DNA of 45,829 nucleotides from an uncultured Caryophanales bacterium. GTDB lineage: Bacteria > Bacillota_I > Bacilli_A > RF39 > UBA660. A model generated the notes under the pieces. The model saw nothing but the letters and a program-made list of their open reading frames with translations, made no database searches and was not told the DNA's origin. Made by a program: the position numbers and the translations under genes. Below, piece by piece: positions 27,761-33,825 of the stretch (position 1 is its first letter; each line of letters begins with the position of its first letter). The stretch lies in NCBI GenBank assembly GCA_946615975.1, contig CAMOID010000001.1, forward strand, positions 130,638 to 176,466, in the 5' to 3' direction.

Positions 27761-29797
27761 ATGAGAAGATGGCAAAAGGTGGTTATAATTGTTATTATAG
27801 CTGTCGCTATAGTAACTGGTATAGGTATTGGATTATATACAATTTTAGTTGATGAAAATTCATTATCTATAAAAGAAAAAGAATGGTTAGATAATAATAA
27901 ATCTAAAGTATTATCAATTGCTATTCCTAATGATTTACCAGTGTTTGGTAATACAGGAGCAGGTGTATTCTTTGATTTTGTTAATTATGTAAGTGATGAT
28001 TTAGGAATAGATGTTAATAAAAATACTATTTCTTATTTAACTGAATCTGAAGGATATGGTTTCTATGTTTCAAATAGTTGGGATAGTAATAGTTTATTAT
28101 TATATAAAGATCATTATGTATTAATAAGTAAAACTAATGGAATTATAAATGATGGTTCTAAAATTAAAGATTTAAAAGCTGGTGTTTTAAATACTAGCTT
28201 AGATATTGTTGCTAATTATTATGGTGTTAGTGCTGATCATTTTAAATCTTATGAATCATATAATGCTATTACTGAAGCATTAGGAAATGGTGATGTAGCA
28301 TATGCTATTGTTCCATTAAATGAATATAAAGATAAACTTATTTCTAATAGAGTTAATATTATTTATCATATAAGTGATTTAAATAGATATTATTATTTTA
28401 GATTATCTGATAATGATATGTATAATAATATTTTAAAGAAGACATTCAATTCTTGGAAAGAAAAGAAATATAATGATTCTTATGATAAAAATAACTATAA
28501 CTTATTTGTTAAACAATTAGGAATTACTGAAGCTGAAGAAGCTCAATTAACAAGTAAAACATATGTATATGGATTTGCTGAGAATGCTCCATATGAAATA
28601 CTTGCAAGTGGTGAATACGGTGGTATAACTGCTCAATATTTAAATTCATTTAGTAAATTCTCAAATGTTGAATTTACATTTAAGAAATATAAGAATCCAG
28701 AAGAATTAGCTAAAGCTGCTATCGAAAATAAAATTAATTTATATTATAACTACTATAATTTAACAACTAATTATATTGATGCTGGTGCATTAAATACAAT
28801 TAATTATGAAATTATTGCTGATAATAGTATAGATTTATCATTAACAAATATAAGTGGTTTAGCAAATCAAGAAGTATATGTTCAAGAAAATTCATATTTA
28901 TTTGATGCTATCAAAGATATAGATGGTATAACAATTAAGACTTATAAAAATACTTCTGATTTAAGAAGACTTTTAAAAGGTAAACATATAATTATATTAG
29001 ATGAAAATGTAGTAACATATTATGTTTATAAAAATAATAATAATTATTCTGTTAGATATAGAGGATATTTAACTGATAATACTTATGCATTTAGATATGA
29101 AAATGATTCTGATCCTTTCTATAGATTATTTAGTGCTTATACTAAAACTATTGATCCATCAGATTTAGTAAGAATGGGTGTTACTACTTATAATAAAGTA
29201 AATAAAAGAGGAACTATTATTACTAATATTGCATTTACTGTTTTAGTAGTTATTGGTAGTGCTATTTTATTATCTACATTTGTATTTAAGAAGAAGAGAA
29301 AATTAAATTTAAATACTAAAGTTAAGAAAGAAGATAGAATTAAATATATTGATTTATTAACTTCTTTAAAGAATAGAAATTACTATAATGAAAAGATTAA
29401 AGTATGGAATAAAAATAGAGTTTATCCTCAAGCATGTATAGTATTAGATTGTAATAGAGTTAAAGAATTAAATGACTTACTTGGTCATGAAGAAGGAGAT
29501 AAGCAAATACAAGCTGTTTCTAATGTTTTAATTCGTACTCAAGTTGATAATTCAGAAATAATGAGAACAGATGGAAATGAGTTCTTTGTATATATGGTTG
29601 GTTATTCTGAAAAACAAGTATTATCTTACATGAAGAGATTAGTTAAAGGATTCAAGAAATTACCACATGATTATGGTGTAGCTATGGGATTCTCAATGAT
29701 TGAAAATGATACTAAATTAGTAGAAGATGCATTTAATGAAGCTTCTATTAAGATGAGAGAGAATAAGGATTTAGAAGAGGAACATCATGAAAAATAG
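27761..29797 (+). CDS. Two-domain solute-binding sensor with degenerate GGDEF domain
   Basis: 678 residues. Membrane helix 7-30, two consecutive external SBP_bac_3-like regions (about 40-250 and 265-475), second membrane helix about 486-509, short basic linker and a C-terminal cytoplasmic GGDEF-fold domain (about 525-670). The fold is supported by LLTSLKNRNYYNEK (530-545), VLDCNRVKELNDLLGHEEGD with metal Asp563, and the signature position. That signature reads D604-G-N-E-F608 in place of GGDEF, and no RxxD inhibitory site is visible. The arrangement resembles BvgS/EvgS-type sensors in front of an output domain that may bind nucleotides without making c-di-GMP. The 3' end overlaps the YihY-like gene by 11 bases. 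Confidence 0.8.
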   Translation: MRRWQKVVIIVIIAVAIVTGIGIGLYTILVDENSLSIKEKEWLDNNKSKVLSIAIPNDLPVFGNTGAGVFFDFVNYVSDDLGIDVNKNTISYLTESEGYGFYVSNSWDSNSLLLYKDHYVLISKTNGIINDGSKIKDLKAGVLNTSLDIVANYYGVSADHFKSYESYNAITEALGNGDVAYAIVPLNEYKDKLISNRVNIIYHISDLNRYYYFRLSDNDMYNNILKKTFNSWKEKKYNDSYDKNNYNLFVKQLGITEAEEAQLTSKTYVYGFAENAPYEILASGEYGGITAQYLNSFSKFSNVEFTFKKYKNPEELAKAAIENKINLYYNYYNLTTNYIDAGALNTINYEIIADNSIDLSLTNISGLANQEVYVQENSYLFDAIKDIDGITIKTYKNTSDLRRLLKGKHIIILDENVVTYYVYKNNNNYSVRYRGYLTDNTYAFRYENDSDPFYRLFSAYTKTIDPSDLVRMGVTTYNKVNKRGTIITNIAFTVLVVIGSAILLSTFVFKKKRKLNLNTKVKKEDRIKYIDLLTSLKNRNYYNEKIKVWNKNRVYPQACIVLDCNRVKELNDLLGHEEGDKQIQAVSNVLIRTQVDNSEIMRTDGNEFFVYMVGYSEKQVLSYMKRLVKGFKKLPHDYGVAMGFSMIENDTKLVEDAFNEASIKMRENKDLEEEHHEK

Positions 29798-30650
29798 TAA
29801 TAAGTTTATTACTAAAGCTAAAAATAGATTTAAGAAATATACTAAAAGTATTTGGTCAATTATAATAAAACCGGAGATGGGTATATTACCTGGTCAATTA
29901 GCTTTCTTTATACTTCTATCTTTAGTTCCAATTGTTACTTTAGCTTCATATATAGCAGGTTTATTTGAAATAAAAGTAGATTCAGTATTAGATATGTTAG
30001 GATTTATTCCTGGAGCTGTAGAATTGTTAGTACCAAATTTTAAAGGTGGTTTAGGATTAGGTTTTGTAATCATCTTTATATGGATGTTTTATATAGCTAC
30101 TAATGGATGTAATACAATAATACTTATATCTAATCAAATATATGGTATTAATCAATCTACATGGCTAAAAAGAAGAATTAAAGCTATATTCATGACTTTG
30201 ATGATAGTTCTATTAATTATATTTATGTTAATATTTCCTGTATTTAGTCAAAACTTATTAGAAATGTTAAAAGAAATACCTGGATATGGTTTATTAATAA
30301 ATATATATAGTATTGCATATCCAATATTTTCTATATTAGTTATATATGTATTCTTAAGAGTATTTTATAATTTTGCTCCTGATAGAGTTAGAGATAAAAC
30401 TAATATAGGAACAGGAGCATTTGTTACATCTATAGGATGGTATTTTATTACTTTATTCTATAGTTATACTTCACATAATATGGTTACATATAACTTATTA
30501 TATTCATCTCTTAGTAACTTAGCTTTACTAATGATTTGGTTATATTTTATTTCTTATATGTTTGTATTAGGTTTAGCATTAAACTATGGTGAAGAATTAC
30601 ATGAAAAAGAATCTGAAACAGGTATTATTAAAGTAATAAAAAATAAATAA
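29787..30650 (+). CDS. YihY/BrkB-family (UPF0761) membrane protein
   Basis: 287 residues with about six membrane helices. Family marks: an N-terminal amphipathic part, GQLAFFILLSLVPIVTL, YNFAPDRVRDKTNIGTGAFVTSIGWYF, and ALLMIWLYFISYMFVLGLALNYG. The family is annotated as BrkB-like or YihY; the molecular role is unsettled, and the old RNase BN name is not supported. Last gene of the three-gene unit, starting inside the GGDEF-like gene. Confidence 0.9.
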   Translation: MKNSNKFITKAKNRFKKYTKSIWSIIIKPEMGILPGQLAFFILLSLVPIVTLASYIAGLFEIKVDSVLDMLGFIPGAVELLVPNFKGGLGLGFVIIFIWMFYIATNGCNTIILISNQIYGINQSTWLKRRIKAIFMTLMIVLLIIFMLIFPVFSQNLLEMLKEIPGYGLLINIYSIAYPIFSILVIYVFLRVFYNFAPDRVRDKTNIGTGAFVTSIGWYFITLFYSYTSHNMVTYNLLYSSLSNLALLMIWLYFISYMFVLGLALNYGEELHEKESETGIIKVIKNK

Positions 30651-30723: not shown

Positions 30724-31473
30724 ATGGATAAATTAGTGGTTAAGAAAATGGATGTTAATATCGAACTAAATGGATTAATAACTGCTGTTATTGGTCCAAC
30801 TAACTCTGGTAAAACAACTTTATTAAAGAAATTATGTAATAAGATAGATAATTCAGATTTATTTATAGATGATATTAATATTAAAGAATATGATATTACT
30901 TTTTTAAGAAATAATTTAGTATGTGTATTAGACGATGATATTCATTATACTGATACTGTAATTGATGAATTATCCTTTCATTTAAGTGAATTAGGATATA
31001 ATTTATCTGAAATAGATAAAAAGATTAAAGATATATTAAAATATTTTAAATTAGAGAAAATAGAACATGAATATTTAGATAGCTTATATATGGAAGATAG
31101 AATGATGATAAAGATATTATCATATTTAATTATTAATCCTAAAGTAATTGCTATTGATGATTTAATGAGTTATTTGGATGATAAAAGAATAGATAAAATA
31201 TTAGATTATATTAAAGATAATAATATTTCTTTAATATATGTTACTACTAATACAGAATTCTTATTAAAAGCTGATAATGTAGTTGTTATGAACAATATGA
31301 AATCAATTATGAATTCTAATGTACAATCAGTTTTAAATGGTAATAGCATATTACCATATATAGGATTAAAGTTACCATTTATAGTAGATTTAAGTCAAAA
31401 CTTAATACTATATAATTTAATAGATAAAGTAATGACTGATGAAGGAAAGTTGGTGTCTAAGTTATGGAAATAG
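30724..31473 (+). CDS. Divergent EcfA1-like ATPase with lost catalytic motifs
   Basis: 249 residues with the outline of an ECF-transporter ATPase. Walker A is intact (GPTNSGKTT, 24-32). The other ABC motifs are degraded: the Q-loop position reads RNNLVCVLDDD without Gln, the LSGGQ signature is replaced by LYMED around 121-125, Walker B is VIAIDD with Asp146 where the catalytic Glu should be, and the switch His is Thr175 (VTTNTEF). The C-terminal GLKLPFIVDLSQNL matches the EcfA1 tail. Position upstream of truA-rplM-rpsI is where ecfA1-ecfA2-ecfT sit in Bacilli. It overlaps the next ORF by 10 bases. The reading frame is open and codon use normal, so this is not a simple pseudogene. Confidence 0.75.
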   Translation: MDKLVVKKMDVNIELNGLITAVIGPTNSGKTTLLKKLCNKIDNSDLFIDDINIKEYDITFLRNNLVCVLDDDIHYTDTVIDELSFHLSELGYNLSEIDKKIKDILKYFKLEKIEHEYLDSLYMEDRMMIKILSYLIINPKVIAIDDLMSYLDDKRIDKILDYIKDNNISLIYVTTNTEFLLKADNVVVMNNMKSIMNSNVQSVLNGNSILPYIGLKLPFIVDLSQNLILYNLIDKVMTDEGKLVSKLWK

Positions 31474-32105
31474 TATATTCAAAAGAGATGCCTGCTGATT
31501 TTAGAAATGGAAAGATAATAGGTTTCTATGGAGATTTATTAGATTTAAATTTATATGATATTGATACATATGGTATTAATTATGATGATGAATGGAAAGT
31601 ATCTAAATTCTTAAATGGTGGACATTTAAGAATGAATAAAAGAATATATGATATTTTAGCATTCCTAGATATAGATAAAAGTATATTAAATTATAAGATT
31701 AAAGATATAAGTAAAGTAACATTTAAATATGTATTATTAACATATGTATTATTAAATAATATTGATAATATTATATTTGATCATATTGAAGTAGGAATGT
31801 CTTATAAAGAAGTAAGACATGTTAAACAAATTATTAAAGAATTATGTAAGAGTAATAAGAATATTGTAGTTATTACTAAAGATTTATTATTTTTAGATGG
31901 TTTGGTTGATGAATTAATAGTTATTAACAATAAAAAAGAAGTTTATCGTGGTTTCTTAAAAGATGTATTTGATGAACCAATTAAACTTGAAGAACCAAAG
32001 ATAATTAAATTTATTAATATGGCAAATAGAAAAGGTGCAGATTTAAATATTACATTAGATAATAAAGAATTATTAAAGGATATTTATAGGAGTGTTGGAA
32101 AGTGA
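31464..32105 (+). CDS. EcfA2-like protein lacking Walker A (ATPase remnant)
   Basis: 213 residues, against about 280 for EcfA2. The region aligned with Walker A reads GKIIGFYGDLLDLN with no GK[ST]. No LSGGQ is present. Walker B is NIIFDHIEV with His107 in place of the catalytic Glu, and the switch position is VVITKD with Lys139 instead of His. Yet the tail LVDELIVINNKKEVYRGFLKDVF followed by a Pro, a helix and KGADLNITLDNKELL follows the EcfA2 C-terminus closely. It starts inside the previous gene and its TGA stop overlaps the GTG start of truA, so all three are translationally coupled. No EcfT follows. A scaffold or regulatory role is possible; unknown. Confidence 0.65.
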   Translation: MEIVYSKEMPADFRNGKIIGFYGDLLDLNLYDIDTYGINYDDEWKVSKFLNGGHLRMNKRIYDILAFLDIDKSILNYKIKDISKVTFKYVLLTYVLLNNIDNIIFDHIEVGMSYKEVRHVKQIIKELCKSNKNIVVITKDLLFLDGLVDELIVINNKKEVYRGFLKDVFDEPIKLEEPKIIKFINMANRKGADLNITLDNKELLKDIYRSVGK

Positions 32106-32827
32106 AATACTTAGTTAGTATTAGTTATGATGGATCTAAATATTATGGATTTGAAAGACAACCTAAATTAAAAACAATACAAGGTGAGATTGAAAGAGTA
32201 TTAAAGAAGATATCTAAAGAAGATATTACTATTAAAGGTGCAGGTAGAACTGATAGAGGTGTACATGCACTAGATCAAAAAGCTCATTTTGAATTATCTA
32301 ATAATATTCCATGTGATGGATTAAAAGATGCAATGAATAGTTTATTAGATGATTATATTTATATTAATTATGTTAAAGAAGTAAATGAAGATTTTCATGC
32401 TAGATTTGACTGTGTTTCTAAAACATATGAATACTATTTAAATGTAGGAGAATATAATCCAATTAAAAATGATTATATTTATAACTATAATAAACCATTG
32501 AATATTGGAAAGATGAGAAAAGCAGCTAAATATTTATGTGGAATGCATTCATATGAAGCATTTACTGCTGGTGAAAGAGAAAACTATAATAGTATTGTTT
32601 ATAAAATAACAATATCTAAGAAAGATAATATTATTAAGTTTAAATTTGATGGAAAGAGTTTTTATAGATATATGGTTAGAAACCTAGTTGGTATATTAAT
32701 AGATGTTGGAAGAGGTAAAATAGAACCAATTGATGCTAAAAAAACACTTGAAGCAAAGAAGAATATATGCGGGTATGTAACAGCACCTGCATGTGGTTTA
32801 TATTTAACTAAGGTAAATTATAAGTAA
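32102..32827 (+). CDS. truA: tRNA pseudouridine(38-40) synthase
   Basis: 241 residues with a GTG start overlapping the previous stop (GTGA). Catalytic motif GAGRTDRGVHA with Asp51; LVSISYDGSKYYGFERQP at the N-terminus and RYMVRNLVGILIDVGRGKI near the C-terminus are diagnostic. It modifies the anticodon arm at U38-40 of many tRNAs. As in other Bacilli it lies between the ecf position and rplM-rpsI. Confidence 0.96.
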   Translation: MKYLVSISYDGSKYYGFERQPKLKTIQGEIERVLKKISKEDITIKGAGRTDRGVHALDQKAHFELSNNIPCDGLKDAMNSLLDDYIYINYVKEVNEDFHARFDCVSKTYEYYLNVGEYNPIKNDYIYNYNKPLNIGKMRKAAKYLCGMHSYEAFTAGERENYNSIVYKITISKKDNIIKFKFDGKSFYRYMVRNLVGILIDVGRGKIEPIDAKKTLEAKKNICGYVTAPACGLYLTKVNYK

Positions 32828-32965: not shown

Positions 32966-33397
32966 ATGAAAAGTACATTCATGGAAAAAAAGGAAACAGT
33001 TAAACGTAATTGGTATGTAATCGATGCAACAGACGTTACATTAGGACGTCTTTGTACAAAGGTAGCTAACTTACTTACAGGTAAGGGAAAAGTTACTTAT
33101 ACACCACATATCGATTGTGGAGACTATGTTATCGTTGTTAATGCTAATAAAGTAAATCTTACAGGAAAGAAATTAACTGATAAGAAATACTACAATCATT
33201 CAGATTTCCCAGGTGGTTTAAGAACTAGAACTGCTGGAGAAATGATTGAAAAATATCCAGAAGAATTAATTGAAAGAGCTGTTAAAGGAATGCTTCCAAA
33301 AGGAAGATTAGGAAGAGCTATGGGTAAGAAATTATTCGTATATGCTGGACCTGAACATGAACAACAAGCTCAAAAACCTGTTAAGGTTGAAATGTAG
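32966..33397 (+). CDS. rplM: 50S ribosomal protein L13
   Basis: 143 residues, normal length. The MKSTFM...[16 protein letters not shown] start, [27 protein letters not shown] and [12 protein letters not shown] are typical. An early assembly protein of the large subunit. AAAGGGA precedes the start. First gene of rplM-rpsI. Confidence 0.98.
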
Positions 33398-33411: not shown

Positions 33412-33825
33412 ATGAGTAAAGTTATAACAGCAAGCGGAAGAAGAAAAGCTTCAACTGCACAAGTTAAAATGACTCCAGGAACTGGTAAAATTACAGTTAA
33501 TGGTGTTGATGTAAACGAATATTTACCATTCGAAGTATTAGTTATGGATTTAAAGCAACCACTAGTTGTTACTAATAACGAAACTTCATTTGATATCGAA
33601 GTTGTAGTTAGAGGTGGCGGATACTCTGGTCAAACTGGAGCTATCAGACTAGCTATTGCTAAAGCATTATTAGCATACGATAAAGACACTGATCCTAACA
33701 GTGATTCTTCTTACAGAAAGATTTTAAAGGCTGAAGGTTTAATTACTAGAGACCCAAGAATCAAAGAACGTAAGAAATATGGTCTTAGAAAAGCTCGTAG
33801 AGCACCACAATTCTCAAAACGTTAA
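33412..33825 (+). CDS. rpsI: 30S ribosomal protein S9
   Basis: 137 residues, about seven longer than Bacillus S9 (130). [12 protein letters not shown] at the start, [22 protein letters not shown] in the middle, and the C-terminal [25 protein letters not shown] reaching the P-site tRNA are conserved. The extra length lies in the loop [22 protein letters not shown] precedes the start. Last gene of the L13-S9 unit. Confidence 0.98.

Follow-up and report, generated by a model that had tools for sequence, protein, structure and literature searches.

To our knowledge, no role other than that of a transporter motor is known for ECF ATPases. At the locus described here, the genes for both halves of such a motor are kept, although the rest of the transporter has been lost. 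The window analysed in this study, a stretch of 45,829 nucleotides from an uncultured Caryophanales bacterium of the RF39 lineage (window genome, G000), carries two open reading frames, referred to as A1 (EcfA1-derived) and A2 (EcfA2-derived), at a site corresponding to the ancestral ecf-truA-rplM-rpsI gene order of Bacilli (PMC8046335) minus ecfT. The features used throughout the text are as follows:

30724..31473, forward strand: A1, ATPase of 249 aa derived from EcfA1, apparently unable to hydrolyse ATP
30793..30819, forward strand: Walker A of A1, GPTNSGKTT, kept in 53 of 68 EcfT-less A1 proteins
31084..31104, forward strand: former ABC signature site of A1, LSGGQ replaced by LYMED (LYMEDRM)
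31144..31161, forward strand: Walker B of A1, VIAIDD, Asp145 retained, catalytic Glu replaced by Asp
31249..31251, forward strand: former switch His of A1, now Asn176
31339..31470, forward strand: conserved C-terminal segment of A1, residues 206-249, LPF..DLS..L..Y..LVxxLWK
31464..31473, forward strand: A1/A2 coding overlap of 10 nt (LWK-stop / MEI), equally long in 119 of 128 pairs
31464..32105, forward strand: A2, EcfA2-derived subunit without P-loop, 213 aa
31530..31535, forward strand: former P-loop of A2, Gly23-Asp24, with a deletion after it in comparison with intact EcfA2
31707..31727, forward strand: former signature site of A2, ISKVT (ISKVTFK)
31767..31784, forward strand: former Walker B of A2, NIIFDH, Glu replaced by His
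31959..32102, forward strand: conserved C-terminal segment of A2, residues 166-213
32102..32827, forward strand: truA, GTG start, 4-nt overlap with the A2 stop
32966..33397, forward strand: rplM, ancestral ecf operon context
33412..33825, forward strand: rpsI, ancestral ecf operon context

The first-pass annotation had described two overlapping frames coupled to truA, and both the coordinates and the overlaps of 10 and 4 nt proved right. There is no ecfT at the junction between A2 and truA, where related genera carry it. This junction measures mostly from -10 to +25 nt; whichever gene precedes truA is closely coupled to it, even in genomes without A1-A2. Genes located 5' of the pair differ among genera and even among members of the genus (BrkB, or ORFs of 157 or 494 aa), so a consistent new membrane neighbour of A1-A2 was unsupported. 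In the window, two genes upstream of A1, we noticed a gene (27761-29797) for a large membrane protein with a C-terminal GGDEF-like domain and preceding domains which by appearance resemble solute-binding proteins; it overlaps the BrkB/YihY gene (29787-30650). An assembly artefact was rejected, since the same arrangement is present in independent MAGs (rumen, rabbit, goat, deer) on contigs of up to 505 kb. The relatives are MAGs; wherever a source is given, it is the rumen or the gut of another herbivore.

Both proteins are descended from EcfA1 and EcfA2, as had been proposed. The best NCBIfam match of A1 was TIGR04520 (ECF_ATPase_1; E 3e-26, 92 bits, not reaching the curated equivalog cutoff of 315), accompanied by a Pfam ABC_tran match of 40 bits. 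A2 matched best to TIGR04521 (ECF_ATPase_2; E 1.9e-9) over residues 57-202, with 37 bits, below the curated equivalog cutoff of 330, and had no Pfam match. The AlphaFold2 model of A1 (pLDDT 72, poor around the P-loop) had CbiO and EcfA chains as its best structural matches, and for the A2 model (mean pLDDT 85.5) EcfA'/CbiO chains ranked first in PDB by Foldseek. VIA-align of the A2 model against EcfA' 7nnt_B gave Z of 15.9 and rmsd of 4.0 over 202 aligned residues. Both A1 and A2 combine EcfA homology with the EcfA fold, including its C-terminal segment.

Only Walker A had been credited to A1 at first reading. The signature, catalytic Glu and switch His are indeed gone and Walker A is kept, but the Walker B Asp is retained as well. 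Within Walker A, G24, P25, G29, K30 and T31 are invariant in eight genus sequences; the catalytic Glu position is Asn in some species, and the coding overlap with A2 places a partial constraint on the final residues of A1. Because the Walker B Asp is retained, Mg-ATP binding by A1 is still plausible, and we regard A1 as a predicted Mg-ATP-binding protein. For A2, the loss of all motifs was borne out, as the P-loop, signature, catalytic Glu and switch His, the last replaced by Lys, are all missing. Judging from sequence, the locus does not encode two hydrolysis-competent ATPases equipped with Walker A, LSGGQ, Walker B Glu and switch His.

The lack of EcfT extends beyond the window. PF02361 searches found EcfT in 0 of 11 genus genomes and in 15 of 15 sampled genomes from other families of the class, and a family-specific profile was negative for both the window genome and the genus genome G009. 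The window genome is only 70% complete, and the genus relatives, at 79-96%, agree on EcfT absence. Relocation of EcfT elsewhere in the genome was rejected, searches with PF02361 and the family-specific profile being negative. In other EcfT-less genomes of the family the latter profile gave no convincing copy elsewhere, except in G150, where it lies at a separate locus.

S components, whose search had been recommended, were also missing: PF07155 and BioY profiles found none in the genus, and PF12822 gave a single weak partial match, in G002. The S component of this family is of PF07456 (Hpre_diP_synt_I) type; a family profile found none in G000 and G009, and the component was present in 29 of 65 EcfT-positive versus 0 of 59 EcfT-less genomes (Fisher p 1.6e-10, uncorrected for relatedness). 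A group II ECF transporter comprises EcfT and at least one S component; in the window genome neither was found with the profiles searched. A second, separate ECF locus was noticed in G150 (L258, G150:C13, 1579-3444) and G116 (L259, G116:C53, 1073-2895), comprising one PF12822 S component, one ATPase in which most motifs are preserved, and an EcfT-like protein of only 180-189 aa; in both genomes the truA-linked A1-A2 pair is degenerate.

To assess how widespread the arrangement is, we surveyed 145 genomes of the family with truA as the anchor; these draft MAGs represent nearly one per genus and sample a larger family. Among the 135 scorable genomes, 65 carried EcfT (some with only a shrunken or unrecognisable membrane protein in the EcfT slot), 59 had A1-A2 directly 5' of truA with no EcfT, 9 had no pair at truA and 2 were unclear, these counts of genomes not being independent events. 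The EcfT-less pair spans about 58 genera; a genus-specific oddity was rejected, as such pairs occur across the family in 59 of the 135 scored genomes. On a tree of TruA and, where present, the rplM/rpsI products (L13/S9), with 138 taxa and 526 columns, the EcfT state changed at least 20 times, or 10 times when only branches of support >=95 were used, and a loss-only model gave from 16 to 30 losses depending on the support threshold. Shuffled EcfT labels needed 43 changes on average; therefore relatedness matters, yet losses are many. Altogether, we estimate about 10 losses of EcfT as the minimum and 20-30 as the probable number.

Despite these losses, A1 and A2 are under purifying selection similar to that on neighbouring genes. 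We calculated dN/dS by NG86 with bootstrap, YN00 being unstable at these distances. For the closest pair of genomes (G000/G006) the values were 0.113 for A1 (CI 0.066-0.188) and 0.117 for A2 (0.060-0.229), alongside 0.061 for truA, 0.109 for BrkB and 0.155 for the GGDEF protein gene. The second close pair (G002/G008) gave 0.101 for A1 and 0.169 for A2; in the more distant G005/G007, with synonymous sites near saturation, A1, A2 and truA reached 0.36, 0.31 and 0.28, respectively. In genus members both frames are open and lie upstream of truA, with 43-93% identity and no stops in the truA-linked matches. The exceptions are G010, for which the search returned no close copy, and two genomes, G001 and G004, whose contigs start within A1 or A2. 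Plain pseudogenes were rejected, as the frames are open and dN/dS of about 0.11 is not neutral. The first-pass annotation had left a choice between early decay and retention for another job. The former does not agree with such dN/dS, the lack of stops and an EcfT-less pair in about 58 genera; the latter, retention for something other than ECF uptake, is supported.

The residues which outlive EcfT indicate what is being kept. According to motif calls, read by regular expressions from an automatic alignment, the 68 EcfT-less A1 proteins retain Walker A in 53 and Walker B Asp in 62, and the signature in 7, the switch His in 4 and the catalytic Glu in 2. Walker A of A2 was found in 8/67, so that it is present only in A1 in 46 of 66 EcfT-less pairs and only in A2 in 2 of them; of the 30 clades without EcfT on the tree, 23 retain Walker A in A1 and 5 in A2. 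At similar TruA divergence, identity of the C-terminal segment falls from EcfT-positive to EcfT-less proteins merely from 45 to 40% in A1 and from 43 to 38% in A2, compared with 37 to 21% and 42 to 25% for the helical/signature part. This part and the stretch linking Walker A to the Q-loop lose a third to a half of their identity after EcfT loss. As the Arg motifs of EcfT anchor in grooves on the ATPases (PMC10368641), some loss of constraint on the nucleotide-binding domains is expected once EcfT is gone. The constant length of the A1/A2 overlap suggests matched synthesis of the two proteins.

Present-day species also form a graded series. Counting four motifs (Walker A, signature, catalytic Glu, switch His), the mean number intact in A1 and A2 is 3.3 and 3.3 in genomes with S component and EcfT, 1.8 and 2.0 with EcfT but no S component detected, and 1.0 and 0.5 without EcfT. 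EcfT length falls from about 250 to 187 aa, the first xRG coupling motif being lost more often than the second xRx. In one sub-lineage (e.g. G017, G069, G112) Walker A of A1 is lost and A1 has shrunk to about 150 aa. This suggests that S components were lost first, then hydrolysis, EcfT, the N-terminal half of A2 and, in the one sub-lineage, that of A1.

Several loci illustrate the series. EcfT-like membrane proteins of 187-228 aa (L066 3287-3868, L061 3478-4125 and others) have in most cases lost the first xRG and in many kept the second xRx, and apparently represent a non-transporting intermediate. In G143 (L138, G143:C22) an EcfT-like protein accompanies a 215-aa A2-like ORF, and A1 is not recognisable upstream, where a 173-aa unrelated-looking ORF is located instead. 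The ecf operon of G153 (L222, G153:C51) is apparently interrupted and consists of an A1-like ORF of 152 aa, an unrelated-looking 293-aa ORF, split A2-like pieces and EcfT. At the loci with the shortest A1 (L072, L236, L240, about 150 aa), as well as at L073, L158, L172 and L245, different genes lie upstream of the pair and truA, by eye whiA-like or spoVG/yabP/divIC-like. As the pair with truA stands behind other gene sets in the shortest-A1 sub-lineages, the block has therefore moved with the truA link retained.

The explanation we favour, with a probability of about one half, is that the residual group II ECF ATPase pair forms an ATP-binding, hydrolysis-dead heterodimer with a non-transport role as scaffold or sensor. 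The group II transporter would have lost its S components and then EcfT, leaving A1-A2 as the residual ATPase pair. From the conserved C-terminal segments and the 10-nt overlap we infer a heterodimer joined via these two segments. A1 probably binds Mg-ATP without hydrolysing it and A2 would be devoid of canonical nucleotide binding; with no signature in A2, the pair is not expected to form an ATP sandwich. Most likely it would act as an ATP-bound scaffold or an ATP-responsive switch or sensor for a partner protein, in a role which may be older than EcfT loss and independent of transport. A putative nucleotide-binding scaffold best fits the pattern of retained residues, and the description "EcfT-less pseudo-ATPase pair" is supported at the level of sequence. 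The role appears dispensable and not always ATP-dependent, because one sub-lineage lost the Walker A of A1 and in 9 genera the pair is missing from the truA locus. More tentatively, we propose a widespread soluble pseudo-ATPase complex, repeatedly derived from the ECF motor once the transporter had been lost, in which ATP would be a bound ligand and no longer a fuel, and which would control a process in a major uncultured gut lineage of Bacilli.

The main rival, in our opinion rather unlikely, assumes that A1-A2 work with a membrane protein encoded elsewhere which replaces EcfT and is either unrelated to it or beyond recognition, as part of a non-canonical transporter or membrane complex. EcfT shrinks gradually from 250 to 187 aa and in some genera becomes unrecognisable while keeping its slot and often the second xRx, so a partner can escape the profiles. 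Moreover, RF39 genomes are reported to be highly reduced and devoid of vitamin synthesis (PMC6784871), hence uptake should still be required. However, hydrolysis residues are gone in both A1 and A2, which makes canonical ATP-driven transport unlikely. The negative family-specific EcfT searches (G150 excepted), the absence of the PF07456-type S component from EcfT-less genomes and the reduced conservation between Walker A and the Q-loop after EcfT loss also argue against such a partner.

Slow residual decay, in which the pair is an ECF remnant under relaxed selection, heading to loss with no distinct function, is improbable. It would account for the graded series, which runs from the intact module through motif depletion, shrinkage and loss of EcfT, and shortening of A2 and of A1 to absence of the pair, and for the drop in conservation of the nucleotide-binding domains once EcfT is lost. 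It is at odds with dN/dS of 0.10-0.17 in the closest pairs and zero stops, with open, overlapping frames persisting in about 58 genera, and with the selective retention of Walker A and Walker B Asp in A1 and of both C-terminal segments.

Even more doubtful is a translation-linked role, in which A1-A2 would regulate or bind TruA or the ribosome directly. The pair is still linked to truA-rplM-rpsI in the window genus, and to truA in most genomes without EcfT, but this order is ancestral in Bacilli (PMC8046335), truA persists after loss of the pair, and A1-A2 possess neither tandem ABC domains nor signature motifs like those of ABC-F or RLI proteins. The earlier suggestion of a regulator of truA or ribosomal genes found no specific support, as the order is inherited and truA couples to other genes as well. 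Hardly credible is a translational leader, in which the ORFs only deliver ribosomes to truA by coupling and the protein is irrelevant: the tight junctions described above fit it, but the amino-acid sequences of A1 and A2 are under purifying selection, and truA is coupled to other genes in several genera lacking the pair, so A1-A2 are unnecessary for the coupling. Pseudogene decay and translational leader were each rejected as the sole cause of retention.

Among the papers searched, none dealt with EcfT-less EcfA pairs or with ECF loss in RF39. A family of gut Bacilli appears to have dropped the transporter many times, keeping hydrolysis-dead motor proteins under selection; therefore EcfA1-EcfA2 may have another function besides transport, which could also go unnoticed in bacteria with ordinary ECF transporters. 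Naturally occurring intermediates within the family allow the order of loss to be inferred, and the family raises the question of how RF39, reported to be without vitamin synthesis (PMC6784871), lives without ECF uptake. If the favoured scaffold or sensor role is found, the pairs would be a clean model for conversion of an ABC motor into a scaffold.

Among known systems, the closest is the group II EcfA1-EcfA2-EcfT module (B. subtilis, L. delbrueckii; 4hlu, 5jsz, 7nnt, 8bms), with which A1-A2 share adjacent overlapping genes of EcfA1/EcfA2 type, the operon position before truA-rplM-rpsI and the fold including the C-terminal segment. They differ from it in having no EcfT, no S component and no P-loop in A2, in the absence of signature, catalytic Glu and switch His from both subunits, and in A2 being about 70 residues shorter than intact EcfA2 of the family. 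In heterodimeric ABC exporters with a degenerate nucleotide-binding site, one half has lost catalytic residues and nucleotide binding persists at one site (PMC7756269), a pattern resembling that predicted for A1-A2. These exporters retain their membrane domains and a functional site, whereas neither site of A1-A2 looks competent for hydrolysis and there is no membrane subunit left. ABC-F, RLI/ABCE1 and SufC are soluble ABC proteins which have no membrane domains and keep the catalytic motifs, ABC-F and RLI in tandem. A1-A2 resemble them in having ABC-type domains apart from a transport domain, and differ in being two separate, motif-depleted subunits of EcfA descent.
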